64,000 nt of DNA, taken from the NCBI GenBank assembly GCA_016946835.1, contig JACVTC010000014.1, positions 815,001-879,000 of the forward strand. Direction: 5' to 3'. The DNA comes from Neocallimastix lanati (nom. inval.). Taxonomy: Eukaryota; Neocallimastigomycota; Neocallimastigomycetes; Neocallimastigales; Neocallimastigaceae. This document shows, one piece after another, positions 7,141 through 28,189 of the stretch; the first letter of the stretch is position 1, and every line of letters begins with the position of its first letter. The translations under genes and the position numbers were made by a program. The notes under the pieces are model-generated. The model was given only the letters and a program-made list of their open reading frames with translations, had not been told where the DNA came from and searched no databases.

Positions 7141-7927
7141 TGGTATGGTTCATATAATTTTAGGAATATAATAATAATTAACACAAATAATAAAATTACA
7201 ATAAAAAAATAATTTGTTTTAAAAATCAATATTTATTTATTTAAATTTATAAAAGAAAAATAATAATATAATTATTTATTTAATAAAAAGAAAGTTATTG
7301 ATTATATTTTATTTCACTAAAATTACATGTATTTATATTTTTTTATCAAATTAAAATTTGTAAAGCCTAACTATTTTTTTAATAAACTAATTACTAATTA
7401 TTTTTATAAATAAAACATTTAAATTGAAATTGAATTATTATTTTAGTTAATAATATTATTGTTATAAATAGTAGTTATATATTATTGAATTATTAATTAT
7501 TTAATAATAGTTTAATACTAATATATATAAAATAAAAATAAAGAGATTATACAGAATATTTTATTGTGGTTTAGTTAAATTTAATAATTAAAAATAAATT
7601 TAAATTGATAACGAAAATTTTAATAACTAATTAAATAGATTTGATTATTTTCAATATAACATAATACAAAAGAAATATAATATTAATATATTAAGTGGGC
7701 AAGGACAATATTCTTGGCTAAAGATTTTTAATACATTATAATGGAATCGGATCGATAATTCAAAAAGGAATTATAAGTTAATTAGTGATTTATTAACTTA
7801 AGATTTCTATTTAGTAATATTTGAAGAATATTGGAAAGTTCCAATTATATAGAATAGAATAATCTATAAGGTTAGAATAATTTATATTATTTTAGTACAA
7901 TTAGTATTATTTGTTCATTCTGTATTA
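7141..7927 (-). repeat. E2 3' LTR
   Basis: It is 787 bp and matches 13367-14154. The inner boundary is fixed by comparison with E3: both have GTAT(T/C)A followed by AGATGCCCCC on the plus strand. E2 therefore carries TA where E3 carries the canonical TG. Confidence 0.88.
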
Positions 7928-7950: not shown

Positions 7951-10900
7951 CTAGGTAGAAGCTGAGTTAAACTTGACAATATTTTTCAAATGAACATTAC
8001 GATTCATTTGTATATTAGTAGCAGGATCGGCTAAAGTGACTGTATTGAATTGTTTCTTTACCACTTTCATAGGTCCAACAAAATAAGGTTCTAATTTAGT
8101 TCGATTAAAGTTTCTTACTAGTACTAAATCACCTGGTTTTATTCTTTTAGCTTGATTCATACTGGTCTTTTCTTCTCTCCTAGTAGCCCAATACTTCGAA
8201 GCATTTTTGATATTAGATGCGGCCTCCATTACCCATTGGTAGTGTGATACAAATTTTTCCAGTAGAATTTCGTCAGAAGACTTATTTATACCCTTAGTTG
8301 GTCTGGCAGCAATGTCAAAAGGTTGTTGGTCCTCCCTTCCATAAACTAATTCAAAACTTGAATGGTTGGTGATTGAGTTTTTAGTAGTTCTTAAAGCCCA
8401 AAGTGCAGATGGTAAAATTTCATCCCATTCTTTGTGTTGTTGTTCTAGTAATCGTAATAATTTTCCAATTTCTTTATTACGATTCTCAACTAAACCATTG
8501 CTTTCAGGATGATATGGAGTGATAAATTTAACATATACATCATATAAATCAAGGAAGATTTTTGTCATATCTGATGTAAATTGTGTTCCATTATCAGTAG
8601 TGATAATTTGAGGTACACCGTGTCGAGCAAATACATTAATTAAAAATTTTATCACATCCTGAGAAGTAACATTTTCAGTGGGCTCTGCCTCAACCCATTT
8701 AGTAAAATAATCAACCACAACGATTATATATTGATTATTATTTCTGGTTTTACTTAGAGGTCCTATAATGTCCAATCCTAAGTGTGTAAATGGTCCTTCC
8801 ACTTCAGTTGGTTTATCTTCCGTTGGTTCAGGGTATGGTTGAGATTTATTTAATTGACATTTTTCACATTTACCTATAATTCGCTTAATGTCATTAACCA
8901 TATTGTTCCAATAGTAGCTCTTTTTCAAACGTTGGTATGTCTTGTAATAGCCTTCGTGTCCTATACTGTGTGCTTGAAAAATTAATTGAAGTTTTTCTTT
9001 TGTATCTGTAACTAATTTTCTATAATTATTGCCATCAACAAAGTAGTCCACACCATCAATTGTCGTAAATTTTTCTTCAATAAATTCCTTAATGGTTCTT
9101 GAAAGCAGGTTTTCATCTTGTTCTTTGATTATTTGTGTTGTTAATACAACTTTTTCTTTTTCATTTTTCATTCTTGATAAAGCATCTGCGACAACATTAT
9201 TCTTTCCAGTTTCATATCGTAAATCAATTCCTAACATACTGACAGTCAAACACCATCTTGTATGGCGAGAGTTTTGTGGTTCCTTATTTTTAAGTAATCC
9301 GATTAAGGGTCTATGGTCTGTATATACTATAGTTTGCTTAGGATTTCCCATAATATAAGATTTTAATTTATTAATACAGTAAATTAGAGCAGCACCTTCT
9401 AGATCCGTAATTCCATAATTCTTTTCCGATTTAGATAAACTTCTACTAATATAATGAACCGGATGCTCCTTTCCAGTTTCATCATCCTTTTGTAAAAGCA
9501 CACCGCCTATTCCATCATAGGAAGCATCTGTTCTTATAATAAATTCTCTATCGAATCTAGGAAATCTTAATATTGGAGCATTGATTAATCTTTCCTTAAG
9601 AATTTTAAAGCTTTCTTCTTGTTCCTTTTTCCATTCAAACTTAACACCTTTTCTTAATAGAGTGCAGAGAGGAGCAGTAACTTTTGCAAAGTCCTTAATG
9701 AAATTTCTATAATATCCAATGGCTCCTAAAAATGATCGAAGTTCGTGAATGTTAGAGGGAGCCTTCCATTCTTTAATAGCTTCAACTTTGTTTTCCAATG
9801 GACTTAAACCTTCTGAGGATACTTTATGTCCAAGTACTTCTACTTCAGTTTGCATGAAAGAACACTTTTCGATATTGATTTTTAACTTATGTTCCTTGAA
9901 TATTTCTAAGACTTGTTTAAGATGTTCTAGGTGTTCTTCTTCAGTTCTTGAGTAGATTAAAATATCATCGATAAAGTTATAGACGCATTTTCCTATTAAG
10001 GGAAATAGTATACGGTTCATTTCTCTTTGGAATGTAGCTGGAGCACCTGTTAAACCGAAGGGCATTACCTTGAATTGGTAGTTTCCGAACTTAGTTGTAA
10101 AGGTAGTGATTTCAACACTATCATCATCCATTAATATTTGATGATAACCGGAATAAAGATCTAATGTTGAGAAGATTTTTGCTCCATCTAAGCTATCAAA
10201 AATTTCCTCAATATTTGGTAAAGAATAAGAATCCTTCTTAGTTGCTTCATTTACTTTCCTATAGTCAATACACAGGCGCCATTTACCGTTCTTTTTAGGC
10301 ACAAGTACTACTGGTGATGACCATTCTGAACATGAAGGTTCAATTAATCGTTTATATATGAGTTTGGTTAATTCTTCTTTTAAGATATCTGTTTTTAATT
10401 TACTAAGTCGATAAAATTTTTGTTTAATAGGTTTAACTCCTTCCTTAAGAATAATTTTGTGTGGTGATAAATCTGAAGGTGTTAATTCTTCAGAAGAAGT
10501 TGCAATTATATCAATATATTCTTCAAGTAATTTAGTAATAGCTTCTCTATAATTTGAATTAATTGTACTTTGAAAAACTGTGTCATATATATATTTTATG
10601 GGTGGTAATCCTTCAATCGTTTTCAATTGTTGCTTAGCTTCTTGGTGATTCAATGCTTTGATTACACATAATAATTTTTCTTCGTCATCATATTCATTAT
10701 TAATAGGTGTAATTTCTTCAATTAAACCTTGATCATTAAATCGACAAAGACTATATCTAATTGGATGTATAAATAACTGGTTATCAATTTGAGTTTTGAG
10801 GTTGATTAATATATCATAGAATGGATCCTCCTTGTCTATAATTCTACACGTAACAAGTAGTTCTAGTTCATTAATTTTTACGGGAACTTTGATTAACACA

Positions 10901-11946
10901 TCTTCTGAGTAATCATCATTCAGCGTTGCTAAACGTATTCGTCCTGCACTAACTCCTATAGGTTCATACTGATAAGGTAATTTATCTAAAAATTGCTTTG
11001 TGATAATACTTAAGTTGCTACATGAATCTATTAAAGCCTTACCACGAACTCCATCTACTATTACATCAACCATAGCAATATCATCTTCTTGTGGTTCATG
11101 ATGTTTACTTTTATATGTATGATCTATATTGTTCGTTATTATTGTAGTAGCACACATATTATCCACTGCACCTGAAATTTTAGTATTATTCTTTTCTAAT
11201 TTAAGTCCTTGTGATACTTGAGACCGTATCTTTGGAGCAACGTCCAATAATTGTCCAAATGTAATATTGCAATTACTGGAGTTTAAATCTTTGATCACGT
11301 CATAACTATCACAATCAGTTTGCATTTGTATTCTTTTTGGAATTCTAGTTGGCATAATTTCAGTTGACTTTTCTGATGATTTTTCTTGAATTAATTTATT
11401 TAAAGTTTGTTTAGAATTATTTCCTTCCTGAGAAGTTTCTTCATTAATAATATTAACAATACTATTTTTATTATTTTCCACAGAAGTACTAGTACTAGCT
11501 CTTTCCTTATCTCTTAGCTCTTTCTCAATCCTCTTTTCTTTCTCTATTCTGGGTTGAGCCATAATCGAAGGATGTAATTGAGTTGTTGGCTTTTTGACTG
11601 GTCGCGATGTTCCCCTTAATTGATTTTCTTTTTGTTTTCGTAAACCTGGAGTAACTATTGGCTTAGGATCATCTCTTAGACTACGGTGAACCCTCTTTCC
11701 TCTTTGGTCACTAGTCTCTTCATCTTTAGGATTTGCCTTTCTCTTTATAACGTTTACTAAGTAATCCAATTCTTTGGAACCATCCGACTCATCATCAAAA
11801 TCTTCGTAATAATCCGTAGTAGTACCTTCTTGGAAATCAGCAATTTCTTCATAATCATCATCTTCTTTTAAGTCAACTGTTTTGGGACGATGGCAGACTG
11901 AAGCAATTTTTTTGACGATGGGAGTGCTTCTACTCCCTTTTAGTGG
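7951..11946 (-). CDS. E2 Pol polyprotein (protease, RT, RNase H, integrase)
   Basis: The frame is open from the frameshift site to 7951, 1331 residues if entered at the slip. It has no ATG near its start, which supports expression as a Gag-Pol fusion. A basic linker comes first, then a protease whose active site reads IDSCSN (11014-11028) with Cys in place of the usual Gly. RT follows with FIDDILIYS, RNase H with RTDASYDGIGG, and an integrase HHCC zinc domain (HSIGHEGYYKT, CEKCQ). The DDE core has GLDIIGPL, TTDNGTQF and the Glu in NGLVENRNKE. The end has GPMKVVKK and no chromodomain. All RT and integrase catalytic residues are present. E3 Pol is its closest relative in the window. Confidence 0.9.
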   Translation of the reverse strand, partial: PLKGSRSTPIVKKIASVCHRPKTVDLKEDDDYEEIADFQEGTTTDYYEDFDDESDGSKELDYLVNVIKRKANPKDEETSDQRGKRVHRSLRDDPKPIVTPGLRKQKENQLRGTSRPVKKPTTQLHPSIMAQPRIEKEKRIEKELRDKERASTSTSVENNKNSIVNIINEETSQEGNNSKQTLNKLIQEKSSEKSTEIMPTRIPKRIQMQTDCDSYDVIKDLNSSNCNITFGQLLDVAPKIRSQVSQGLKLEKNNTKISGAVDNMCATTIITNNIDHTYKSKHHEPQEDDIAMVDVIVDGVRGKALIDSCSNLSIITKQFLDKLPYQYEPIGVSAGRIRLATLNDDYSEDVLIKVPVKINELELLVTCRIIDKEDPFYDILINLKTQIDNQLFIHPIRYSLCRFNDQGLIEEITPINNEYDDEEKLLCVIKALNHQEAKQQLKTIEGLPPIKYIYDTVFQSTINSNYREAITKLLEEYIDIIATSSEELTPSDLSPHKIILKEGVKPIKQKFYRLSKLKTDILKEELTKLIYKRLIEPSCSEWSSPVVLVPKKNGKWRLCIDYRKVNEATKKDSYSLPNIEEIFDSLDGAKIFSTLDLYSGYHQILMDDDSVEITTFTTKFGNYQFKVMPFGLTGAPATFQREMNRILFPLIGKCVYNFIDDILIYSRTEEEHLEHLKQVLEIFKEHKLKINIEKCSFMQTEVEVLGHKVSSEGLSPLENKVEAIKEWKAPSNIHELRSFLGAIGYYRNFIKDFAKVTAPLCTLLRKGVKFEWKKEQEESFKILKERLINAPILRFPRFDREFIIRTDASYDGIGGVLLQKDDETGKEHPVHYISRSLSKSEKNYGITDLEGAALIYCINKLKSYIMGNPKQTIVYTDHRPLIGLLKNKEPQNSRHTRWCLTVSMLGIDLRYETGKNNVVADALSRMKNEKEKVVLTTQIIKEQDENLLSRTIKEFIEEKFTTIDGVDYFVDGNNYRKLVTDTKEKLQLIFQAHSIGHEGYYKTYQRLKKSYYWNNMVNDIKRIIGKCEKCQLNKSQPYPEPTEDKPTEVEGPFTHLGLDIIGPLSKTRNNNQYIIVVVDYFTKWVEAEPTENVTSQDVIKFLINVFARHGVPQIITTDNGTQFTSDMTKIFLDLYDVYVKFITPYHPESNGLVENRNKEIGKLLRLLEQQHKEWDEILPSALWALRTTKNSITNHSSFELVYGREDQQPFDIAARPTKGINKSSDEILLEKFVSHYQWVMEAASNIKNASKYWATRREEKTSMNQAKRIKPGDLVLVRNFNRTKLEPYFVGPMKVVKKQFNTVTLADPATNIQMNRNVHLKNIVKFNSAST

Positions 11947-11952
11947 TTTAAA
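11920..11952 (-). promoter_or_regulatory. E2 programmed -1 frameshift signal
   Basis: The last Gag codons contain the heptamer TTTAAAC (minus strand, plus 11946-11952), in Gag frame as T TTA AAC. The Gag stop follows one codon later. An 8-nt spacer (11938-11945) is followed by a hairpin with stem GGGAGT/ACTCCC (11932-11937 with 11920-11925) and a 6-nt loop. Pol is open in the -1 frame across the site. This is the classical X XXY YYZ slippery site with a downstream structure. Confidence 0.88.
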
Positions 11953-12857
11953 TGATTTTCATAAAACTTCTTGCGGTTATTTTCCAATATAGAATTTAAT
12001 TTAGGACAGTTTCGTTTGGTATGTCCTTCATTGCTACAAAACCAGCAAGTACTAATTTTCATTTCTTTCATCTTGTTAGTGAGATTTTCTATAGATACAT
12101 TTTTGTGGGTTTTTGGTTTGTTAAAATCATTTGAAATGTTCTTATTAAAATTACTTTTAGAGTTAAGGAGATTGTAACGAGTCTTATCATAATATTCAGT
12201 ACTATTTTTAATAGATAAACGATCAACTTTTTCAGCTATAGCGAATGCTTTGGTAATAGAAATATTGTCTTTAAGCATAACCTTTCTCCATGCGTCAGGA
12301 TTATTGGTTAAGGAATCTGCATAATCTAAAACACTAATTTTTCTTCTTCTCTTTTTATCCAATTTATGGTACAAAGATCTATAACGGACATTAAAATCTT
12401 TAACTTTCTCGTTCTTCTTTATTTTCATGGAACGTAATTCTCGTAACAAATTGGTTTGATCTTCTTTAAGTCCATAGAAAGTCTTCAGATGATTTATGAT
12501 TTCATCAAGGCTTGGGTAGGTGCTAGTAGATTCACTTTCTTCATCACCTTCTCCTTCACTATCGCTATCGAAATCAGAATCTTCATCTTCAGTAAGGTCA
12601 TTTCCATCTTCTAGTTCTTGGATAATTTCTCTTGGTTCTCCAGAAGCCGTTAATATACAAGCAGTAAAAATAGTTTCAGGATCCTTGATATGTTGGTATT
12701 TTATCCATGCCTTTAACTCATTTGCCCAGGAGTTGATGTCAAGGTTTTGTTTAGTAAGCTTTTCAAAATCTTTTAATTCTTTCTTTAATTCTCTGAAGCT
12801 AAGCTTACTTTCTGGAGTACTCTCTGTTGGAGTACTGGAAGTACTGGATGTTCTCAT
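11940..12857 (-). CDS. E2 Gag
   Basis: This 305-residue frame starts at the ATG at 12857. It has a Ser/Thr-rich N-terminus, a helical capsid-like region, and a strongly acidic Glu/Asp/Ser insert at about residues 86-112. A second conserved region has LRELRSMKIKKNEKVKDFN. One zinc knuckle CWFCSNEGHTKRNC lies near the C-terminus (about 271-284). It ends in NHLNH, overlapping the frameshift heptamer. It would form the particle shell, and the knuckle would bind element RNA. The acidic insert is unusual for a nucleic-acid-binding Gag and is absent from the other three Gags here. Confidence 0.88.
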   Translation of the reverse strand: MRTSSTSSTPTESTPESKLSFRELKKELKDFEKLTKQNLDINSWANELKAWIKYQHIKDPETIFTACILTASGEPREIIQELEDGNDLTEDEDSDFDSDSEGEGDEESESTSTYPSLDEIINHLKTFYGLKEDQTNLLRELRSMKIKKNEKVKDFNVRYRSLYHKLDKKRRRKISVLDYADSLTNNPDAWRKVMLKDNISITKAFAIAEKVDRLSIKNSTEYYDKTRYNLLNSKSNFNKNISNDFNKPKTHKNVSIENLTNKMKEMKISTCWFCSNEGHTKRNCPKLNSILENNRKKFYENHLNH

Positions 12858-13366
12858 AAAATAAAATTTATTGTATCTATAGAATGCTAAACCTCGTAAT
12901 GTATAAATTGTTATAAAAAAGTAAAAATAAAAAAAAATTAAAAAAAATAAATCTTTTAACTAATAAAATTATTAATTATTTATTATTATTAATCACTTAT
13001 TAAATTATAATAATCGTGCAATCTGATAGTACACACTGTCTGACGTGCAGCTTACCTCTTGAAAGGTGTCATGCCACGCGTGTGCCACGGTTACTATTTT
13101 CAATATAAAAAATAGCAGTCCAGAGCCTACTAGCCCAATTACTATGTAGGATAAACTTAACCCGGAAATCTATGCACGAATATTAGTTTAATTTAATATT
13201 AATTAATATTTTTAACAATTAATAATAATTAGTTAAAAATATAAAAATTGTTTTCTTTTTTAAAAAAATATTTGTTTTATTAGAAAAATTATTTATTAAT
13301 ATTATAATTTTATCCCCAATGTATTAATTTATTATTATATTCCCCGATATCTCCACCAATTTTTCA
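12858..13366 (-). promoter_or_regulatory. E2 leader: primer-binding site and structured RNA
   Basis: Reading leftwards from the 5' LTR, an 8-nt spacer is followed by an 18-nt site TGGTGGAGATATCGGGGA (plus 13341-13358). Its complement ends in CCA and looks like a tRNA 3' end (T-stem plus acceptor). A GC-rich block lies at 13014-13179 and is described separately. The remainder is AT-rich. The gag ATG follows the GC-rich block by about 157 nt. Confidence 0.72.
13014..13179 (-). ncRNA. Conserved structured leader RNA, E2 copy
   Basis: The 7-bp closing helix pairs 13173-13179 with 13014-13020 (TCGTGCA/TGCACGA). A second 8-bp helix pairs 13150-13157 (AGTTTATC, minus) with 13049-13056 (GGTAAGCT). 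A hairpin pairs 13109-13115 with 13094-13100 (CTATTTT/AAAATAG). Blocks shared with E4 are GATTTCCGG, TTAAGTTTA, AGGCTCTG, GACACC, AGGTAAGCTG and TACTATCA. Its role is unknown; packaging, translation control or dimerisation are possible. Confidence 0.68.
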
Positions 13367-14154
13367 TGGTATGGTTCATATAATTTTAGGAATATAATAA
13401 TAATTAACACAAATAATAAAATTACAATAAAAAAAAATAATTTGTTTTAAAATCAATATTTATTTATTTAAATTTATAAAAGAAAAATAATAATATAATT
13501 ATTTATTTAATAAAAAGAAAGTTATTGATTATATTTTATTTCACTAAAATTACATGTATTTATATTTTTTTATCAAATTAAAATTTGTAAAGCCTAACTA
13601 TTTTTTTAATAAACTAATTACTAATTATTTTTATAAATAAAACATTTAAATTGAAATTGAATTATTATTTTAGTTAATAATATTATTGTTATAAATAGTA
13701 GTTATATATTATTGAATTATTAATTATTTAATAATAGTTTAATACTAATATATATAAAATAAAAATAAAGAGATTATACAGAATATTTTATTGTGGTTTA
13801 GTTAAATTTAATAATTAAAAATAAATTTAAATTGATAACGAAAATTTTAATAACTAATTAAATAGATTTGATTATTTTCAATATAACATAATACAAAAGA
13901 AATATAATATTAATATATTAAGTGGGCAAGGACAATATTCTTGGCTAAAGATTTTTAATACATTATAATGGAATCGGATCGATAATTCAAAAAGGAATTA
14001 TAAGTTAATTAGTGATTTATTAACTTAAGATTTCTATTTAGTAATATTTGAAGAATATTGGAAAGTTCCAATTATATAGAATAGAATAATCTATAAGGTT
14101 AGAATAATTTATATTATTTTAGTACAATTAGTATTATTTGTTCATTCTGTATTA
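13367..14154 (-). repeat. E2 5' LTR
   Basis: It is 788 bp and matches 7141-7927 except for two A-run lengths (9 versus 7, and 4 versus 5). Its right flank is CTTTAG, which does not duplicate the left flank of the element. Confidence 0.88.
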
Positions 14155-14471
14155 CTTTAGTTGTTAAGGTTTTAGAGAATTAAATAAAAATAAAGTAAAG
14201 AAACACAAATTTTATTTTTTTTTATTTATTATTTTTATTTATAAATTTATTTTATTAATTTTACTTGATGATTTTTAAAAATTAGTAGCAAAATTTACAA
14301 CTATTTATACTTTTTTTTCAAGGCATAAAAGTTGTTCTTGCCACTAAATTACATTTTATTTTTATTTTTTTTTTTATAAAAACTATTAAATTTAAATTGA
14401 TTTTTATAATCAATTATATAAAATTTAATTATAACAATATAAATAAAATACATTTATAATATTAATAAAAC

Positions 14472-14521
<50 letters not shown>

Positions 14522-15010
14522 CTATCTAAAATATTACTAATAAGAATTTATTTAATTGGCTATAATTTTTATTACAATCTGTTAAAATATTCAAATAAAA
14601 ATAAAAATACTATTCTAATATAAAGGTTTTTAATAAAATAAAATATTTTTCAATATAAAATAAAACATTTCGATATAAAATTTTATAATAAAAGTTAAAA
14701 TATAATATATAAATTTTTAATTATCAATATATAAAAATATTATTAATACAAATTTTCATTATTAATATAAAAATAAAAAAATAAGATTTATTATTAATAT
14801 TGCTAATATAAGTTTTAAATATATAAAAATATTACTATTAATATAAGATTTAATATAAAAATATAAAGTTTAATATAATTTTTGATTTAATTTTTGATTT
14901 TTGGATTTAAAAATTTATTAAAGTACAAAAATAATAATGTACACATAATGTATTAGAAATAAATCGTAGATTTAATTAAGAATGCATTATTTAGTACATT
15001 CTTATCATAG
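14155..15010 (+). repeat. E0 fragment, AT-rich
   Basis: This piece of the outer LTR-like insertion lies between E2 and E3. It holds a T-run of about 46 nt at 14471-14516 and repeated short AATATAAAA-type units. No ORF, RNA gene or other signal is recognisable. It ends in CATAG at the E3 border. Confidence 0.55.
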
Positions 15011-15686
15011 TGGTACAGGACTTTTCATTTATTTATTTTCAATAATAATATATTCTAATTAATTCTAATTAAACTTATTTAATTATTTCCGAATATTATC
15101 TAAACTAATTAAACTCAACATTAATATTCTAATGTTTTTAAATATTAACTAAGCTCTCTTTTATTTTATTTTAAACCCCTTAATTAACTTAATTATTATT
15201 TAAACTTAAAACTATTATATTAACAACACAGCTTAACACTAAATTAAAACACCCTTAATTTATTTTACCTTATTTTATTCTAAAATTTAATTTATAAAAT
15301 TTTGAGAGAGAGTTTTTTAATATTTTTTTGATTTTACAAGTTATTTATAGAATTTAATGAAGTTTTTTAATTGGTTCAAATAAATTTTTAATTAATTAAA
15401 ATAAAATAATGTATAAAAAATAATAAAATAATATATAAAAATAATAAAAATTAAAGTAAAAATAAAAGTAAAAGTAAAAATAAAAATAAAAATATAAAAT
15501 AAAAATAAATTATAAGATAAAAATAATATAATAAAAATTAAAATAAAAATAAAGTAAAAGTAAAAATACAAATAAAAATTTAAAATAAAAATAAAGATAT
15601 AAAATAAAAATAATATAAAAAAAAATAAAAACAAATATAAAATAATAAATTCAATAATATAAGCAATATTAGATTGTTCCGTATCA
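15011..15686 (-). repeat. E3 3' LTR
   Basis: It is 676 bp, the same length as 21100-21775 with no visible differences. The middle (15390-15650) is a purine-rich (A,G)/T string of AAAATAAA-type units. This is simple sequence, not a gene, although it stays open in one frame. Confidence 0.92.
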
Positions 15687-15817
15687 AGATGCCCCCGTTG
15701 AGTTAGGACTTCGTCCCTGAAGTCTCTATTTCACATAACTTATACGGAACAATATTTTTTAAATGGACATTACGTTCTGCAATTTCATTAGTGAGCGGAT
15801 CACACAAGGTAACAGTA

Positions 15818-18800
15818 TTAAATTGTTTTTTTAACTATCTTCATTGGTCCAAGGAAAAATGGGTCAAGTTTTCTTCGATTTATTAGTCGTACTAATACAA
15901 GATCCCCTGGATTGTAATCTGCCTTAAGTCTCTTCATTTGTTTTCTCCGATCTTCCCAAAGCTTATTAGCTGTTTCAATATTGTTAACAGCTTCTTTTAT
16001 CCATTTATTATGTTTTGTGAATCTTCTAATTAAATATTCTTCGTCAGACTCCCACTCCTCTTTTTTATCTAAGTTAATCATTAGCTCAAATGGCTGCAAA
16101 TTCCGACGACCATATAGAAGCTCAAAACTTGAAAATTTAGTTGTTTCATGCTTACATGTTCTAATAGCCCATAATGCACTTGGAAGGATTTCGTCCCAAT
16201 TAGTAGTATTTTTATTACATAATATTCTTAAATACTTCCCAATTTCTTTATTGCGATTCTCTACCTCGCCATTGGATTCCGGGTGATAAACATTAGTATA
16301 GTTTACATAGACACCATAGAGATCTAAGAAAGACTTTGTCTTATCTGATCGAAACTGCGGACCGTTGTCAGTGACAAGTATCTCTGGTGTACCGTGCCTA
16401 GAAAATACTCTTGTAAGAAAATGTATGACATCATCAGATTCGATATTAATACTGGGTTCGGCTTCGACCCACTTGGTAAGATAATCTACTAATACAAAGA
16501 TATATTGGTATCCCTTCTGTGTTTTGGGTAAAGGTCCAACAATGTCTAATCCAACCTTCGTAAATGGTAAACCAGGTTTAGTAGGTAAATTTTCAGTTTG
16601 ATAGTTTCCTGTTTGTGGACGAAAGAGTTGGCATCTTTTACATGTTCTAACTAAGTACTTAACATCCAATATCATGTTTCTCCAGTAGTAGTCGCGTTTG
16701 AGCCGATTATAAGTCTTGAATATTCCTTCATGCCCGATTCCATGGGCCTGTAAAACAAGATTTATCTTTTCTTCATTATCCTTTATAACTTTTCTTAGGG
16801 TTTTAGAATCTTTATCATCATAATATTCTACATTGTCAATTGTTACAAAGCTATTTTTAAAATTATTAACGGGGTTATTACCATCTTCCAATATTAAAGG
16901 AGCAACTATTTCGTCTTTAGATTCCATTCTGGACAGTGCATCTGCTATGACATTCTTTTTTCCGGGTTCGTATAATACTTTTATTTTAAGCATTGAAAAT
17001 AATATTACCCATCTTGTCTGTCTTGCATTATTTGTTTCTTTATTCTTAAAGAGTCCTACTAATGGTTTGTGATCCGTGTAGAGAAGAGTTTCGAATTTAT
17101 TTCCAGCAAAGTATGATTTAAATTTTTTGACACAATAAGCAGCAGCAGTACCTTCAAGATCAGTAATTCCGTAGTTTTGTTCTCCTGGTTTTAAAGTTCG
17201 ATTAATAAAATGTATTGGCTTTTCATTATTATTTTCATCTTTCTGTAATAATACACCTCCTATTCCTGAATATGATGCATCCGTACGTATAATAAATTGC
17301 TTTTCAAAATCTGGCATTGTTAGTATTGGTGCTTTCATTAATCTATCTTTCAACTTATCGAATCCTTCTTCTTGTTCTGAGTTCCAAACAAATGGGGTTT
17401 CTTTCTTTAAAAGTTTATAGAGAGGTTTAGCAATACTTGAGTAATTAGCAATAAATTTACGATAGTATCCAACTGCGCCCAAGAAGGACTGGAGTTGCTT
17501 TACTGTTGTAGGAGCAGACCAACTAGCAATGGCGTTGACTTTAGACATTATCGGTGAAATTCCTTCAACTGAGAGTGTATGTCCCAGAAGCTCTACCTTT
17601 TTCTTAAAGAAATTGCATTTTTCTAGATTTACTTTTAACCGATTTACGGATATAATTTCAAAAACTTTAATAATATCTTTAATATGTTCTTCTAATGAAT
17701 TGGAAAAAATAACTAAGTCGTCGATGTAGATGAACATACATACTCCAATTAGTGGGAAAAAGATCCTGTTCATTTCCCTCTGGAAGGTTGCTGGTGCATT
17801 ACAGAGACCGAAAGGCATGACGCGAAATTGATAGTTTCCAAAGATAGTAGTGAAACTGGTTTTAGGAATATCATTCTTTGACATTGGAATTTGATGGAAT
17901 CCTGAAAACAAGTCTATGGTTGTAAAATATTTGACTTTCTTCCCTATGGAGAAAAGGATTTCATCTATTAAGGGTAATGAGTATGCATCTTTTATAGTTA
18001 AATCATTCAATTTTCGAAAGTCTATGCACATTCGCCATTTATTATTTTTTTTAAGAACTAGTATTACAGGGAAAGACCATGGTGAATTGGATGGTTCTAT
18101 TAGTTTATTATTAATTAACTTGGTGATTTCTTCCTTAAGTGCATCAGCTTGTACCTTTGATAAGCGATAGCATTTTTGTTTGATTGGTTTAGCACCATCT
18201 TTCAATTGAATGGTATGTGGTAATAATTTAGTTGACTGTAATTCCTCAATTTTGGTAGCTAAAATATGATAATATTTATTAAATAATTTTTTAACTTGTT
18301 TTTTATATTTCCACGGAATTTCCAATATTAACTTATCAATTATTTCCTTTTTCTCGTCAATATCCTCTTTTTCTTTTACCTTTTTTGTAAAACAAAGTAA
18401 CAACAATCTGTCTTCTTCTTCATTTGTTTGTTTGGTAGGCAATTCTTCAGTGCTTATACATTTATCCTTTTTGTGTAAAGGTATTATTCTCTCCCAAGTC
18501 TCATCTCTGTTCATTCTACAAAGGAAATTGTCAACTGGGTTTATGAAAAGGTGATTTTCTTTAAGTGTTCTATATCCGATTAGTACGTCAAAGATATTTT
18601 TATCATGATCAATTATCCTAAAGCTATCTTGTATTTCTATATTTCCAAATTTTAGTCTCAAATAACAAGTTTCCATAACGATATTCTTATTGGAGAAAAC
18701 TTGAATAATGTTATCATCAGTGTATCCAGATGGAGTTATATTCTTTAATTTGTTAAAGTATTTCCTTGTAATTAAGTTAATGCTAGCACAAGTATCTAGA

Positions 18801-19507
18801 AACGCTACTCCTGGTGTGTTTTCTACGATACATTCTGCGGTCGCAACGTCTTCTCTGCTTAATGCGGACATCATCACCTTTTCTGGGTTTTCTTCAGTCA
18901 TCTCAGGGGCTTTCAATTTTAATGCCTTAGAGAGTTCCGATCTTAGCTTAGGACTCGCATCAATCAATTGGGATATTGAGATATTTGCCATTAGCTTGTT
19001 TAGGTCGTCTGTAATGTTGTACCTTTTCCTTCCTTCCATCATAGACACATGTTTAGTATTGTTATTACCTAGTTGCTTATTCCTTTTTTCTTTTATTGTA
19101 TCACTTGGTAATGTACTTTGATTCTTATTTGGTTTATTGATATTGCTGTTATTCTTTTCTGCTTCGGTCTGTATTTCTTTAGTTCTTTCTATTTTTGACA
19201 TGCTTTTCGCTTTATTTATTGATGGTTGTGCAATTATTGAAACATCTACTTCTTCAAGTTTTTCTGTGTTGGAATTTTTGTTATTTTCAGTTTCCATGTT
19301 ATCTTGAGCATACTGAAGGCCTTTAGGGATTGGTATACTAACTGGGTTTTCTTTTAATGTTCTTATAGTTCTATTTTCATAAGGTTTTGAACCAGAATTA
19401 TTTTTATTTCTTCTTATAACCGCAGCTAAAATTGGTTCTTTTGACTCTGTAGGGTTCTGATAGGTTGTGGTTTGATATACGGGAGTTTCCCTTCTCCCAT
19501 TTATTAG
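15818..19507 (-). pseudogene. E3 Pol polyprotein, C-terminus frameshifted
   Basis: Entered at the frameshift site, the frame gives 1229 residues. It has a long Asn/Lys-rich linker and a protease reading LDTCAS (18782-18796) with Cys where Gly is expected. RT has YIDDLVIFS, RNase H has RTDASYSGIGG, and the integrase has HGIGHEGIFKT with CKRCQ. The DDE core has GLDIVGPL, VTDNGPQF and NGEVENRNKE. It stops right after GPMKIVKKTI. E2 continues about 34 residues further with NRNVHLKNIV. In E3 a matching NVHLKNIV segment exists in another frame down to a stop at 15703-15705, next to the purine tract. A run of seven A at about 15827-15833, one longer than needed, accounts for the shift. The lost part is the integrase tail, so activity may persist. 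An assembly error in the run is also possible. Confidence 0.82.
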
Positions 19508-19513
19508 TTTAAA
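19481..19513 (-). promoter_or_regulatory. E3 programmed -1 frameshift signal
   Basis: The heptamer TTTAAAC (plus 19507-19513) is in Gag frame as T TTA AAC and is followed immediately by the Gag stop. The spacer is 8 nt (19499-19506). A hairpin GGGAG/CTCCC pairs 19494-19498 with 19481-19485, with an 8-nt loop. The -1 frame is open from here through the first Pol ATG at 19297. Heptamer, spacer length and stem sequence are nearly the same as in E2 although the flanking proteins differ. Confidence 0.88.
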
Positions 19514-20412
19514 TGATTATTTTCTTTTTCTTTATTTTCTCTCTCTTCTATTTCAGCTAACTGCTTAAATGTATAAGGACACCTTCTAAAGATGTGACCT
19601 ATTTTTCCACATCGGAAGCAAACTATATTTTCATTGCGATTTGTTTCATTTTGAGATTTATTTTCAAATTCAGTATTATTTACATTTCTTTGGTTAAAAT
19701 AATTATTATTTTGAAGTGTGCGTCTTTGATTCTGCTTCTGATTATAATTATAGTTATTATTATAATTATTCCTTCTAGTATTAAAGTAATTATTACTCCT
19801 TCTATTATTATTGTATTCATGTTGATATCTTTCAGATTGATTATTGGACTGGCCATGAAATAGTGTTGTCATTACCGTAACTTTATTTGACGTCTTTATT
19901 TGTTCCGCTCTCTCGGCCAATTCAGCTTCTTCAAACGCGTCTTCTAAATCTTCCGATCGTTGGGTAATTACTTGAGATCTAATGTAAGGTCTATACTTAA
20001 TTGATTCAATATAATCATCTACAGTAACAAATGTTTGGTAAAATTTTGGTAAGCTATCGTAGAGTTTCTTATATCTCCAGTTGAAGTCGGCTATTGTTTC
20101 ACCCCTTTGAATCTTCAATTTTTGTAGCATTTTACATTTTTCTTGTGGTGTGATCCTAAGTGCTTCCTCCAAAGCTTCTTTTATCTCTTTTATGGATGGA
20201 TAAATCTTACCATCTTCAGTTTCCTTTTCTAGTTCTTGTACTACACCTCTTAGCCTTCCATTTACACATTCTAATGCCCAAATGAATATACTCTTAGGAG
20301 ATTCTATATCTGCTAGAGCCATCAACCTATTAAACTCTTCAAACCAAGAGTCCAATTCTCCTGTTGATTCAGTTACTCTTGGTAATAATTTTTGGATTTC
20401 TAAAATCTTCAT
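19504..20412 (-). CDS. E3 Gag
   Basis: This 302-residue frame has its ATG at 20412. Its capsid-like region (SWFEEFNRLMALADIESP, FNWRYKKLYDSLP) aligns in layout with E2 Gag but lacks the acidic insert. An Asn/Arg/Tyr-rich low-complexity stretch at about 195-250 precedes one zinc knuckle CFRCGKIGHIFRRC (about 265-278). It ends NNHLN at the slippery site. It is predicted to assemble the particle and to bind the element RNA through the knuckle and the basic stretch. Confidence 0.88.
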   Translation of the reverse strand: MKILEIQKLLPRVTESTGELDSWFEEFNRLMALADIESPKSIFIWALECVNGRLRGVVQELEKETEDGKIYPSIKEIKEALEEALRITPQEKCKMLQKLKIQRGETIADFNWRYKKLYDSLPKFYQTFVTVDDYIESIKYRPYIRSQVITQRSEDLEDAFEEAELAERAEQIKTSNKVTVMTTLFHGQSNNQSERYQHEYNNNRRSNNYFNTRRNNYNNNYNYNQKQNQRRTLQNNNYFNQRNVNNTEFENKSQNETNRNENIVCFRCGKIGHIFRRCPYTFKQLAEIEERENKEKENNHLN

Positions 20413-20740
20413 TCTCTTACTTTCTATTGTTAATATTTTAATATTTTATATAACTAATTAAACTGTTATTTTGTTATAAAAACCCGACCAGTAATCTTAT
20501 TATTATACGCTAATTTCTGTGACGTTTCGTCCCCTGTGTTCATTCCGTCACTTCTCCTCGCACTTGCAAACGACTCGAAGATCTTTACACAGCCCTAATC
20601 CCCCACGCTGACCGAAATTAGCAGCTTGTATAATGCTGAAATTAAAATTACTGTTGTTTAAATAACAAAAGAAGGAAAACTTCTATTACCAGTTGAACAA
20701 CAATAACAATATTTCAATCCAAAGGTTGATGGATGGATCA

Positions 20741-20827
<87 letters not shown>

Positions 20828-20987
20828 TTTATAACTCACTATTACTACTATCACTATTATATATAAATATATTTATTAAAATTCTACACACTAAATTAAT
20901 TATTATTCAATTATTTATTACTTTAACTATATTTTATTCTTTCAATTTATAAAATTTCTTATATTATTGTTATTATTAATTTATACT

Positions 20988-21024
<37 letters not shown>

Positions 21025-21099
21025 GTCTATTCTAAATTATTGAATTAATTATTTTCATATTATTATTGTCTTGTCCTGCATAGCTCGCCAAAATTTTTA
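20413..21099 (-). promoter_or_regulatory. E3 leader: primer-binding site, T/ATT tracts, GC-rich structured block
   Basis: Next to the 5' LTR, after 9 nt, the plus strand reads GTCCTGCATAGCTCGCCA (21073-21090), the 3' end of a tRNA including CCA; its complement is the primer site. A T-run (20743-20790) continues into ATT repeats (20791-20826). A GC-rich block at 20509-20622 is closed by the 9-bp helix GCTAATTTC/GAAATTAGC (20509-20517 with 20614-20622). Inside it lies a GTGACG/CGTCAC stem (20519-20524 with 20546-20551). This block does not share the sequence motifs of the E2/E4 leader RNA. Confidence 0.65.
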
Positions 21100-21775
21100 T
21101 GGTACAGGACTTTTCATTTATTTATTTTCAATAATAATATATTCTAATTAATTCTAATTAAACTTATTTAATTATTTCCGAATATTATCTAAACTAATTA
21201 AACTCAACATTAATATTCTAATGTTTTTAAATATTAACTAAGCTCTCTTTTATTTTATTTTAAACCCCTTAATTAACTTAATTATTATTTAAACTTAAAA
21301 CTATTATATTAACAACACAGCTTAACACTAAATTAAAACACCCTTAATTTATTTTACCTTATTTTATTCTAAAATTTAATTTATAAAATTTTGAGAGAGA
21401 GTTTTTTAATATTTTTTTGATTTTACAAGTTATTTATAGAATTTAATGAAGTTTTTTAATTGGTTCAAATAAATTTTTAATTAATTAAAATAAAATAATG
21501 TATAAAAAATAATAAAATAATATATAAAAATAATAAAAATTAAAGTAAAAATAAAAGTAAAAGTAAAAATAAAAATAAAAATATAAAATAAAAATAAATT
21601 ATAAGATAAAAATAATATAATAAAAATTAAAATAAAAATAAAGTAAAAGTAAAAATACAAATAAAAATTTAAAATAAAAATAAAGATATAAAATAAAAAT
21701 AATATAAAAAAAAATAAAAACAAATATAAAATAATAAATTCAATAATATAAGCAATATTAGATTGTTCCGTATCA
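21100..21775 (-). repeat. E3 5' LTR
   Basis: It is 676 bp, the pair of 15011-15686. Its last two bases, CA, may be LTR or may be the start of the CATAG target copy shared with E4. Confidence 0.92.
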
Positions 21776-21778
21776 TAG

Positions 21779-22568
21779 TGTAAGAAATTGATATAAATTT
21801 TTATAATTTATTTCTATTTCTTATTAATTAATAATTATTTCATAATTATTATTCTTTAAAAAAATTTATTTCATTTAAAAACAATTATACCAATTAATGT
21901 ATTAATTGTTATATGAAAAAATGTATTTAATATAACTTCTGTATTATTTCATAGAAAAAATGTATTTAATAAAATTTCTGCATTATTTTATCCTTCTCTT
22001 TTTTATCCTTTTTCTTTTTAATTCTTTTAGTTATTAAAATCGGTTATTAAAGTTTTTCCGATTAATTATAATTGGTTTTATTTAATAACACGATGATCAA
22101 TAAGTATAGATTATTGATCAAAAATCTTTCCAGTTTTTTCTTCTAATCTTTTTCTGGAAAGAATCATTGTTAAGATTAGAAAAATACATTTATTTTGGTA
22201 AAAATATAAATAGCTGTTGATTTTCGTCTTTAGAAAATCAAGAGTTATTATTTTAAGAAAAATATAATAACAATAAAAGACATTAATATTTCAATTAATA
22301 TAAAATAGTTATTTTAAAATTTGTCAAAAAAAAATAATAAAATATTTAATAATAAAATAGATTAATAAAGTTCTTTTTATAAAAACATATTTTATTTCTC
22401 TTTCATTTAAGGTCTATTATATTTTCTTATAATAAGCTCTAATTTTAAAGATAAGTATTAAATTCTTATTTTTATTTTAATTTTTTATTTTAATTTTTAT
22501 TTAATCTTAATAGTTTAGTTAATATTAATTATAAATAATAATCTCTATAATTTATAGAAATTATTACA
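21779..22568 (+). repeat. E4 5' LTR
   Basis: It is 790 bp. TATAAATA is at 22205-22212. It is followed by an 8-bp hairpin TGATTTTC/GAAAATCA (22218-22225 with 22233-22240). The predicted R start at 22240-22251 begins on the last base of that hairpin. Confidence 0.93.
22240..22251 (+). promoter_or_regulatory. E4 predicted R start, complementary to the primer site
   Basis: AAGAGTTATTAT here is the exact complement of ATAATAACTCTT at 22569-22580, the first 12 nt after the LTR. It lies 35 nt downstream of the TATA box. This matches Tf1-style self-priming, in which the 5' end of the RNA folds onto the primer site. The 3' LTR has the same 12-mer at 27853-27864. Confidence 0.75.
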
Positions 22569-22736
22569 ATAATAACTCTTCTAGATAATTAGTTAATTGT
22601 ATTATGATATTGTAGTACAAAAGTAAAAAAAAAAAAAATTTATTTTATCCGATCAAATAAATAAATAGATAATATTAGAGAAAAAAAAAAAAAAAAAAAA
22701 AAATTATTTTTTCCAATCAGATAAATAAATAATATA

Positions 22737-22777
<41 letters not shown>

Positions 22778-23385
22778 TAGTAAATTATAATTATATAAAT
22801 TAAATTGTATATACTAATAGATAGTAAAATTATATTATTAAATAAAATAATTATAACAATAACAATAATAATAAATACGTAAATTATATACTATAAATTA
22901 TACTAACAATTAAATTTTTTATATTTAATAATATTAATTTATAATAAAGGATTCTAGAAGTTATTTCCAAAAATAAACAATATAATGAGAATTAGTACGA
23001 ACTTTAGAAGCAGGAGTAGCCTGAGTCTTGTAACTGAGTGATTTCCGGATTAAGTTTACCCTTCACGACAAGCTGTGCGGGAGGCTCTGAACTGGTCTGT
23101 TTTAATGGTAAACAGATTGCAATCGTGGTGCGCGCGGCAACAAGACACCATTAATAGGTAAGCTGGTCGTATAGCGCATACTATCACTCAAACTCAGGGG
23201 CTTCTGGAAAATTGGTCGGAAATGCTCATTTTTGTTAAAATATTGGAAGTGTTCTTCTAGACTCCGAAGTTATAAATTTCTATTATTAATATAAATAATT
23301 TATATTTTACAATTATATACATATATTAAAGATATATTAAAGATATTTTAAAGATCTATATTAAAAAAGTCTATTTAGTATTTTA
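22569..23385 (+). promoter_or_regulatory. E4 leader with self-priming site and structured RNA
   Basis: The 12-nt primer site 22569-22580 abuts the LTR. Positions 22600-22980 are AT-rich with three A-runs. The GC-rich block at about 23036-23189 is described separately. From 23190 to the ATG at 23386 is mostly AT-rich, with GGGGCTTCTGG at 23197-23207. Confidence 0.7.
23036..23189 (+). ncRNA. Conserved structured leader RNA, E4 copy
   Basis: The closing helix is GAGTGAT/ATCACTC (23036-23042 with 23183-23189). The second helix is AGTTTACC/GGTAAGCT (23053-23060 with 23157-23164, one G-U). The hairpin is TCTGTTT/AAACAGA (23096-23102 with 23110-23116, 7-nt loop). A further TGGTG/CACCA stem (23126-23130 with 23146-23150) is possible in this copy. 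Helix sequences differ from E2 but pairing is kept, while the unpaired blocks are conserved. Confidence 0.7.
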
Positions 23386-26300
23386 ATGAATTCAATCAGT
23401 ATGGAAGCTACTAAGGAAGCTGAAGCGTCAAAATTAATTTCTGCAATTACCGAATTTATTCCCACATTTTTTTCACCTAACGGTGTGTTGGCCCGCAATG
23501 AAGACAACACAAAGCTTAATCTAAACGAACTAACGGAACAGTGTGAATTGTTCTTTGATGAACATGCCAATTCGTTCCCAAATGACAACTTTAGAAACGC
23601 TTTCGTTATCAGCAAACTTTATGGACCAGCTAAAAAATGGGGATTATCTCTCAAGGCTGATGGAACACTTAATTCTCTCACCTATGAGGAATTTAAGAGG
23701 TTATTGTTAGAAAATTTTGGAGATACAAAGGAACAAAGGTTTGTTTTAATTGAAGAACTTTTGAACCTTAAACAGCTTCACCTCGGAAAGGCAGCTTTCT
23801 TTACTATTGAATTCAGAAGATTAGCGTCAAGAATTGGTTGGAACGACGATGTTTTTATTGACCTTATCCGGAGAGGCCTTCTTGAGGAGGTTCGTCTGGA
23901 GTTCGATAAAATCGAAAGACCAAAGACCCTTTTTGAAGCAACAAATTCAATCATCAGCATCGATAAAAAATGTTTCATTAACAACCTAGCCAAAACAAAT
24001 AAGTCAACCAACAAGTCGCAAAAAAGAAAAAGAGATGAGCATCCAAAACAGGAATTCAAGAACAACAAAGTACACAAGAAATTCAGAAAAAATCAGAACA
24101 AAGAAAGCATCCTTTCGGCTAACTATACACCAAACACCTCAAATTCAATGACCACTACATTTATATTAAATAATAATGGAAAGAAAATGAAAATAAACGT
24201 CCTTATTGATTCTGGTTCTGCAAGAAGTTACATCTGTAGAGACTTTGTAAACGCCAACAGAATTCAATTATCTACCTTGTCTTCACCATTGAACATTCAG
24301 TTACCGAACAACAAAAGTATGAATATAAGACAAGTAACGAAGAAATTAGGCCTTGCCTTCATGGACCACAAGGAAAGCTATGAATTCTACGTAGCTACCT
24401 TACAACTTCAGGGAATATCAGCCATCCTTGGAAGAGATTGGTTGAGTATTCATATGCCATACGTAGATTTCAAAAATAATAAGATTTACTTTTTAGAGAA
24501 CCACTGCGGAAATCACTGCCCTTCAGCAAAAGGGAATAAATTCATTTTTCACTCTAAAGATGTTACTGCTGCAATTTTGCCAAACAACGAAAACAACAAT
24601 GTATCAAAAGATAAAACAGAAACATACTCAATATCTGGTGACGAACTTTTTGATATAGATATTTGCGCCGCTTTAGTAAATGAAACTGATAAAGATGAAA
24701 TTATCAACATATACTATCAAGATTTGAAAATTGTATTTGAAAAGAAAGAGGCAGACAAATTGCCTCCACATCGTGAATATGATATATCAATTGACCTAGT
24801 CCCTGGTGGTCAATTATATTATGGACCTGTGTACTCTCTTACGATTGTCGAAATGGAAGCTCTTAAAAACTATTTAAAAGAAAATTTAGATAAGGGGTTT
24901 ATAAGGAAGTCAAAATCACCTGCTGGTGCCCCTGTCCTGTTTGTAAAAAAACAAGACGGAAGCTTACGACTCTGCGTTGATTATAGGAAATTAAATTCTA
25001 TTACAATTAGGAATAGCTACCCTATCCCAAGATTGGTTGACTTGATTGAATCGTTTAAGGGGGCAGTAATATTCACTCGTTTGGACCTTCGATCTGCATA
25101 TAACCTTGTCCGCGTTAAAGAAGGTCATGAATATTTAACTGCTTTTAGAACACCTTTAGGCCAATTTGAATATCTAGTAATGCCCTTTGGCCTAAGAAAT
25201 GCCCCCTCGGTGTTTCAAAGATTCATCCAGGATGTTTTATCTGATGCAATTGGCATATTTGTTCAAGTATACTTGGATGATATAATAATTTATTCAAAAA
25301 GTTTAGACGAACATATTCAACATGTTCGTAAAATATTGTCGCTTCTAATTAAAAATGGTCTTTACGTGAAATTGGAAAAATGTGATTTTCATGTTAAAGA
25401 AACTATTTTTTTAGGGTTTGTGGTGTCTGTAAATGGTCTTTCAATGGACAGGAATAAGGTTAAAGCTGTTATCGACTGGCCTATCCCAAAAAATATTAAA
25501 GAACTCCAAGGGTTTCTAGGACTTTGTAACTTCTATAGGAAGTTTATAAATAATTTTGCCGAGATCATTGAACCTCTCCGTCGGCTTTTGAAGAAGAACT
25601 CTCCCTTCATTTGGGATGTTAGGGCAGACAATGCTTTCAACAAACTCAAAGAAGCTTTTACGACGGAAGAAATCCTAGTTTATCCAGATCCAGAGAAAGA
25701 ATTCTTTGTAGAAACGGACGCTAGCAATTTCGCTGTTGGTTGTGTTTTATCCCAAATTAGTAACAAAGACAATAAACTCCATCCGGTTGCTTTCTACTCT
25801 AGGTCCTTGTCTTCTGCTGAAATCAATTATACTATTTATGACAAGGAATTACTTGCAATAATCGTAGCTTTTGAAACCTGGCGCCATCACCTAGAAGGTG
25901 CTAAATTTCCAGTACAAGTAGTCACAGATCACAGAAATCTGTTATATTTTAAGCAACCTCAAAAATTAAACCAAAGACAAATTAGATGGAGTCTCTTTCT
26001 CTCAAAGTTCACTTATAGGATTTCATTTCGCTCCGGTATTAAGAGTGGTAAACCTGACTCTTTATCAAGACGCCCTGATTACGTCAACAAGGATTCGACC
26101 AATGAAGGTTATCCTCTGTTAGATGAAGAGATATTTTGTTGTGCACCTTCTGACAACTTAAAAGCCTTAATTGAAGCTCAGAAGTCTGACACATACTGTA
26201 AGGATACACTCAATAAAATTAAAACAAGGTCAAATGAAGTAAAAAGTTCGCTTTTTACCATCGTCGAAGGGGTTCTGCATTTTCAGAACCGAATAATTGT

Positions 26301-27391: not shown

Positions 27392-28181
27392 TGTAAGAAA
27401 TTGATATAAATTTTTATAATTTATTTCTATTTCTTATTAATTAATAATTATTTCATAATTATTATTCTTTAAAAAAATTTATTTCATTTAAAAACAATTA
27501 TACCAATTAATGTATTAATTGTTATATGAAAAAATGTATTTAATATAACTTCTGTATTATTTCATAGAAAAAATGTATTTAATAAAATTTCTGCATTATT
27601 TTATCCTTCTCTTTTTTATCCTTTTTCTTTTTAATTCTTTTAGTTATTAAAATCGGTTATTAAAGTTTTTCCGATTAATTATAATTGGTTTTATTTAATA
27701 ACACGATGATCAATAAGTATAGATTATTGATCAAAAATCTTTCCAGTTTTTTCTTCTAATCTTTTTCTGGAAAGAATCATTGTTAAGATTAGAAAAATAC
27801 ATTTATTTTGGTAAAAATATAAATAGCTGTTGATTTTCGTCTTTAGAAAATCAAGAGTTATTATTTTAAGAAAAATATAATAACAATAAAAGACATTAAT
27901 ATTTCAATTAATATAAAATAGTTATTTTAAAATTTGTCAAAAAAAAATAATAAAATATTTAATAATAAAATAGATTAATAAAGTTCTTTTTATAAAAACA
28001 TATTTTATTTCTCTTTCATTTAAGGTCTATTATATTTTCTTATAATAAGCTCTAATTTTAAAGATAAGTATTAAATTCTTATTTTTATTTTAATTTTTTA
28101 TTTTAATTTTTATTTAATCTTAATAGTTTAGTTAATATTAATTATAAATAATAATCTCTATAATTTATAGAAATTATTACA
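27392..28181 (+). repeat. E4 3' LTR
   Basis: It is 790 bp, the same length as 21779-22568 with no visible differences, and is followed by the target copy CATAG at 28182-28186. Confidence 0.93.
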
Positions 28182-28189
28182 CATAGTCA

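Follow-up and report, generated by a model that had tools for sequence, protein, structure and literature searches.

Packaging, export and translation signals of Ty3-type retrotransposons are poorly defined. According to the excerpts available of two papers, neither Ty1 nor Ty3 has precisely defined packaging sequences (PMC4974528, PMC11381356); those of Ty1 are placed near the 5' end of the RNA (PMC4974528), and dimer formation by Ty3 RNA in vitro requires the palindrome CUGCAG (PMC11381356). The constitutive transport element (CTE) of type D retroviruses, which binds NXF1/TAP, is presented in an excerpt of PMC4330393 as a stem with an A-rich internal loop bearing the signature AAGACA; excerpts of PMC4330390 and PMC4330389 also entered our comparison. 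Here we analyzed a 64,000-nt stretch of the Neocallimastix lanati genome (assembly GCA_016946835.1, contig JACVTC010000014.1, positions 815,001 to 879,000, forward strand; hereafter, the window). An earlier note, made from these letters alone, had proposed a structured leader RNA with compensatory changes in two divergent Ty3-type long terminal repeat (LTR) elements, E2 and E4. That proposal was borne out and extended: Ty3-type LTR retrotransposons belonging to at least eight families carry a conserved folded cis-acting RNA domain in their untranslated leaders. Our literature search, in sources seen in part, found no description of this leader RNA.

The domain is about 165 nt long and, in each family seen, precedes gag in the same orientation. 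In the window it occupies 13014..13180 (minus strand) in E2 and 23033..23192 (plus strand) in E4, in both cases within the internal leader between the 5' LTR and gag. Its distance to the gag ATG, put at 155-200 nt by the earlier note, is 156 nt in E2 and 196 nt in E4; in other families it ranges from 557 nt (F4) to nearly 1,000 nt (F8). Pattern matches and DNA searches together defined eight sequence families, E2, F4, E4, F3, F5, F6, F7 and F8, of which all names other than E2 and E4 were coined in this analysis. The six sequence blocks said to be shared by the E2 and E4 leaders were all found there, in the same order and places.

The fold is a junction closed by helix P1, from which P2, P3 and a long helix, P4, branch. 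The innermost pair of P1 is U-A in 25 of 26 sequences, and a strand of 16-17 nt (UUCCGGRUUAAGUUUAY in E2, E4 and F3) connects P1 to P2. The outer P1 strands of E2, TCGTGCA (13173..13179, minus) and TGCACGA (13014..13020, minus), show a compensatory change relative to F4 (CGTGCA/TGCACG versus CGTACA/TGTACG), and those of E4, GAGTGAT (23036..23042, plus) and ATCACTC (23183..23189, plus), show another relative to F3 (GTGAT/ATCAC versus ACAGT/ACTGT). Both closing helices proposed earlier are thus real, but they occupy different columns: TCGTGCA/TGCACGA of E2 lies outside an internal loop, and the E2 match to GAGTGAT/ATCACTC of E4 is GAT/ATC. P2 is a hairpin with a bulged A (13126..13150, minus, in E2; CCTTC..GGAGG, 23060..23084, plus, in E4); the bulge is present in five of the eight families and absent in F6, F7 and F8. 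A second helix that the earlier note had drawn between AGTTTAYC and GGTAAGCT did not hold up, with covariation in none of six counted pairs and one pair broken in 12 of 27 sequences; its letters are nearly constant, which leaves 82.4% of cells paired. AGUUUA instead pairs with UGRACU beside P2 as an extension of that helix, which by eye F5 retains with other letters (AGUAUA/UGUGCU) and F6 does not. The internal hairpin of the earlier note was correct in both elements and corresponds to P3 (CTATTTT/AAAATAG, 13094..13115, minus, in E2; TCTGTTT/AAACAGA, 23096..23116, plus, in E4; CTATATT/AATATAG in F4). P4, absent from that note, is formed by 10 nt pairing with two later strands across a bulge: CACACGCGTG (13075..13084, minus) with CACGT, a 6-nt bulge and GTGTG (13032..13047, minus) in E2; TGCGCGCGGC (23129..23138, plus) with GTCGT, a 3-nt bulge and GCGCA (23166..23178, plus) in E4; and TGTACGCGGG with CCCGT..GTACA in F3.

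The tip of P4 carries a near-invariant apical motif, namely CATGACACC...GGTAAGCTG in E2 (13048..13073, minus) and CAAGACACC...GGTAAGCTG in E4 (23141..23165, plus). In it, UGAC faces AAGC across a 4 by 4 internal loop, and a short CC/GG hairpin forms the cap. The consensus CA-[UA]GA[CA]-[AG]CC-loop-GGY-[AG]AGC-UG was found on P4 in representatives of all eight families, while the letters of the helix itself change. The apical loop varies in length, and the pair beside CC/GG is A-U, A.C or G-C depending on the family. By eye, Y and its P5 partner form A-U in E2, F4 and F5, A-U or A.C in E4 copies, A.C in F3, F6 and F7, and G-C in F8 and the copy L106. A reading of AGGYAAGC, with TACTA, as a 5' splice site was rejected because Y varies with this partner.

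Covariation, judged by shuffle and slide controls, shows that the fold of the leader RNA is under selection. RNAalifold on a hand alignment of E2, E4 and F3 gave -41.3 compared with -13.7 (standard deviation 3.2) in column shuffles, a value reached by none of 500; the consensus structure was drawn by eye from these three sequences, and this test, as well as the four-family and 27-sequence tests below, therefore leans towards it. Three sequence-only MAFFT alignments of the same families gave z scores of -3.8, -4.1 and -4.2 (reached by 1, 0 and 0 of 300 shuffles), the third of them (globalpair) without P4, and pairs of families gave -3.15 for E2/E4 (1 of 300), -3.9 for E4/F3 (none) and -3.8 for E2/F3 (none). 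When four families were aligned by sequence only, both sides had changed in 17 of 39 pairs (0 of 500 shuffles), and 95.4% of cells could pair, compared with 25-47% when the structure was slid; on the four-family alignment A4, the count of further pair types was reached by 11 of 500 shuffles.

We next consider sequences outside this set. A covariance model, R1, was built from E2, F4, E4 and F3 and searched against chosen loci (19 and 26 sources). It matched families that were not in the model: F5 at 47.9-56.7 bits (E 2e-10 to 1e-12), F6 and its variants at 31.8-45.5 bits (E 4e-6 to 1e-9), and F7 and F8 at 35.0 and 33.6 bits (E 1e-6). The match to a decayed F5-like copy, L112, was not significant (9.7 bits, E 1.6). 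When 27 matches were aligned by the model, 31 of 39 pairs changed on both sides, 93.5% of cells paired compared with 29-44% when slid, and the covariation score was 0.563 compared with 0.195 (standard deviation 0.011) in shuffles, none of 500 reaching it. The check proposed with the original claim, a covariance model and more copies, therefore left the covariation standing.

Folding of single sequences gave a less uniform picture. The minimum-energy structures of F5, F6 and F8 contain all four helices (z -3.1, -3.8 and -4.5), and that of E4 contains P1, P3 and P4 with P2 in another register (z -1.5). The remaining families speak against the full fold: E2 and F4 form P1 to P3 without P4 (z -2.4 and -1.9), F7 forms only P1 and P3 (z -1.8), and F3 forms P2 with P3 and P4 absent (z -0.1).

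The domain is abundant in its own genome (199 Mb in 762 contigs). A pattern of the 5' core, with up to three mismatches, matched 697 places (351 forward, 346 reverse), compared with 2 for the reversed pattern. An apical-motif pattern gave 411 matches and its variant 51, compared with none for either control; one of the 411, L091, which lies outside the window, is by eye unlike the block. These counts and the alignment shuffles rule out chance as the source of the shared blocks. Copy numbers per family are lower bounds. Among the 40 of 67 candidates scored in one DNA search, 26 were E4-type and 14 F3-type, of which four F3 copies were retrieved; the 40 of 53 scored in a second comprised 31 F6-type copies at 92-100% identity, 2 of F7 and 7 of F8; and a third, in which all 14 were scored, gave 13 F5 copies at 96-100% identity plus a single one at 88%. 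The blocks of F7 and F8 are 87% identical, which makes these two families close relatives. Exact-pattern and E2/E4 Pol searches of viral contigs found no relative (one search gave five pattern matches, none of them a relative). Searches of genome contigs gave 0 and 2 matches, both of the latter on bacterial-labelled contigs of 52-55% GC and without an R1 match. Metagenomes, and a protein set labelled Orpsp1 that is presumably from Orpinomyces, yielded Pol relatives among the part of the candidates that was scored.

The domain is carried by elements of unlike organization. E2 has separate open reading frames (ORFs) for gag (11940..12857, minus), which encodes one CCHC zinc knuckle, and pol (7951..11769, minus; reverse transcriptase, RNase H and integrase), and it has a tRNA-type primer site, TGGTGGAGATATCGGGG, in common with F4, F5 and F6. 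E4 has a single gag-pol ORF (23386..27381, plus), in which no CCHC knuckle was found within the first 450 residues. At the end of the 5' LTR, E4 and F3 have the same 13-nt stretch, complementary to a stretch within the same LTR (22568-22580 and 22240-22252 in E4; 799-811 and 513-525 in the F3 copy L058) and absent from the E2 stretch examined, as would be expected if both were self-primed; AT-rich complements of 11-15 nt also occur in E1, E2 and E3. E2 and E4 thus differ in frame strategy and probably in priming, in line with the earlier note. The LTRs, delimited by self-comparison, lie at 7141-7927 and 13367-14154 in E2 (minus; the latter is the 5' LTR) and at 21779-22571 (5' LTR) and 27392-28185 in E4 (plus).

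Gags and blocks are distributed differently among the families. The gag behind the blocks of F4 to F8 is E2-type (47-67% identity to E2 gag over matched pieces, an assignment made on only 29 residues for F7 and 143 for F8), and several of the copies read for gag are decayed (F4, F5, F8). E4 and F3 carry an E4-type gag, 61% identical between the two and with no E2 match; the Gags of E2 and E4 have no detectable similarity (best E 6.3). A CCHC knuckle is present in E2, E3, F4, F5 and F6, and was not found in E4, in F3 or in the F8 stretch, where the frame of the copy stops after 175 codons. In the F3 copy L058 (1808-3126), a stop separates gag from protease in an otherwise E4-like frame. Given an E2-type gag in six families and a dissimilar E4-type Gag in the other two, the RNA looks like a module that has moved between lineages.

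Common descent under extreme constraint, with no transfer between lineages, is a doubtful alternative. In its favor, the domain keeps its place and strand relative to gag in every family seen, and unrooted block distances by themselves allow a root between E4/F3 and the rest. Three observations oppose it. First, block identity to E2 is 92% for F4, 62% for E4, 59% for F3, 57% for F7, 54% for F8, 51% for F5 and 50% for F6 (E4-F8, 61%), so that the blocks of E4 and F3 are nearer to the E2 block than are the blocks of F5 to F8, which share the E2 type of gag. Second, E3 is closer to E2 in Pol than E4 is (46% versus 31% identity), but within the window R1 matched only E2 and E4 (171.8 and 170.3 bits, both copies being among those that built R1), and E3 therefore lacks a copy visible to R1. 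Third, the flanks TTAGTA..AGAAG and GGAAATGC are common to E4, F3, F5, F6, F7 and F8, and E2 and F4 lack them; in E4 the 5' flank (TTAGTACG..TTAGAAGC) lies at 22990..23011 (plus) and the 3' flank, GGAAATGC, which contains an upstream ATG, at 23218..23225 (plus). Against transfer, the identities differ little (57 versus 59% for F7 and F3), and those of F5 to F8 are lowered by imperfect alignment. On the simplest reading, the ancestor of E4 and F3 would have taken the module with its flanks from the E2 lineage, both the transfer and its direction being read from these comparisons.

As to function, we tentatively favor, at a little under an even chance, a host-read cis-element that affects how genomic RNA is translated or exported. 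The helices would keep the junction strands and the apical motif in a form that a factor can recognize, and this reader would come from the host (ribosome, initiation factors, or a protein of RNA binding or export) rather than being Gag. Export, translation or setting aside of genomic RNA would then depend on the domain, which may have moved between element lineages as a module. The same apical motif accompanies dissimilar Gags, which makes a host-encoded reader more likely than Gag; against this, binding of the structure by a Gag need not require a zinc knuckle. A wider picture, in which a mobile host-read regulatory RNA passes between lineages with dissimilar Gags as one of several interchangeable structured leader modules (a second being common to E3 and F8), is possible, and we hold it with somewhat less confidence.

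The main rival is a Gag-read signal for packaging or dimerization, of the kind present in retroviral leaders, that would mark genomic RNA for particles. We consider it unlikely, though a serious contender. The domain lies between the primer site and gag, a position that fits such a signal, and in the excerpt of PMC4974528 the packaging sequences of Ty1 are likewise near the 5' end of the RNA. A 4-nt palindrome, AGCT, is kept inside the apical motif in all eight families, but no 6-nt palindrome occurs at one column in more than three of the eight (TCCGGA in E4, F3 and F6) in alignment A6, which was fitted to the model and in which the rows of F5 to F8 are imperfectly aligned. Dimerization through a conserved 6-nt palindrome was therefore rejected. 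Packaging would also have to accommodate two Gag types without detectable similarity that differ in the CCHC knuckle; in the E4 lineage, the signal would have been captured, with Gag adapting to it or packaging taking place in particles of another element.

For the host-read element, and for an internal ribosome entry site (IRES) or ribosome shunt that would carry ribosomes past the upstream leader to gag, we considered the distribution of ATGs. Counts were compared with dinucleotide shuffles. From block to gag, seven families jointly contain 9 ATGs versus 33.3, as an IRES or shunt would predict; from the LTR or primer site to the block, six families contain 12 versus 22.8, and four LTR controls contain 26 versus 35.0. 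ATGs are tolerated upstream of the block in E4, F3 and F5 (11 versus 11.4), and an upstream ATG is kept in the 3' flank in six families (missing in the F5 copy L117), both in keeping with an IRES or shunt. Several results weigh against linking these patterns to the block. The depletion after it comes from F4, F5, F6 and F8, with none in E2 (0 versus 0.3), E4 (1 versus 1.6) or F3 (2 versus 2.2), and among the three families that tolerate upstream ATGs only F5 avoids them after the block. E2, F4 and F6 are ATG-poor upstream (1 versus 11.5), which speaks for cap-dependent scanning. E3, without the block, is equally ATG-poor (3 versus 11.3), and the depletion therefore need not concern the block; E2 and F4 in addition lack the 3' flank. 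We consider an IRES or shunt improbable. ATGs also occur inside the apical motif in E2, F4, F5 to F8 and five of the six F3 copies examined. The short peptides opened by the motif and flank ATGs are not alike, and a role of these ATGs in translation is therefore possible only.

A self-cleaving or self-processing ribozyme of unknown fold, which the compact junction and its near-invariant single-stranded segments might suggest, is very improbable. Reverse transcription needs the 5' end of the gag-pol RNA, which cleavage at this place would remove. None of 4227 Rfam models gave a match above gathering scores in the window; a sensitive scan of E2 and E4, with E up to 10, gave three weak matches, none of them a ribozyme (E 2.2 to 9.8), and seven other sources had no match at E up to 0.5. 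These matches are at chance level only, and the known RNA families were rejected accordingly. Protein-coding and tRNA-derived repeats, which the earlier note had named as possible refutations, were looked for and neither was found: ARAGORN finds no tRNA in the window, and every forward frame contains at least one stop in representatives of all eight families.

Other features of the window and of these leaders were also observed. Self-comparison of the window, over matches starting in its first 40 kb, gave four LTR elements, E1, E2, E3 and E4, side by side at 275-28185 with near-identical LTR pairs (100, 99.6, 100 and 99.9% identity), which suggests recent insertions. A second GC-rich block lies in the E3 leader (20484-20638, minus) and also in the F8 leader (L115), with the motifs GTGACGGAATGAA, GGACGAAA, ACAAGC and GGTCGG and, by eye, a closing helix paired with other letters (GCTAATTTC/GAAATTAGC versus TACTAGCT/AGCTAGTA). 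Single-sequence folds of this block lack those closing helices, and it had no Rfam match at E up to 1. The same F8 leader has two near-identical hairpin-like stretches around TGGGTCGAAG.GGAATTCGAG, and a nearby stretch has a weak match in the F6 leader L087 (1958-2015). In the F4 leader L061, about 200-450 nt past the primer site and upstream of the block, a GC-richer stretch (up to 50% per 50-nt window) stands in an otherwise AT-rich leader and is possibly another structured RNA.

Several hundred natural copies, spread over eight families, allow one leader RNA and its short near-invariant motif to be modeled comparatively with strong support. If its reader is a host factor, retrotransposons of one genome would share and exchange regulatory RNA independently of their Gags. 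Like Rfam families, the domain is a structured, covarying RNA, and its matches to them stay at chance level. The likeness of the loops led us to compare it with the CTE: each is a stem, carried by the RNA of an LTR retroelement, whose internal loop is rich in A, as far as the excerpts describe the CTE. The CTE was rejected on its signature, since AAGACA occurs only in E4 copies and one of the six F3 copies examined, the other families having AUGACA or AUGAAR, and each domain here has one apical motif, in contrast to the 2-fold symmetry in which those excerpts place the CTE loops. Like the structured leaders of Ty1, Ty3 and retroviruses, the domain is a cis-acting fold placed between 5' LTR and gag; it differs in being one discrete domain with a near-invariant motif, found across families with dissimilar Gags and keeping no 6-nt palindrome. 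What is new relative to those leaders is that a discrete RNA module is shared among families and has probably been exchanged.

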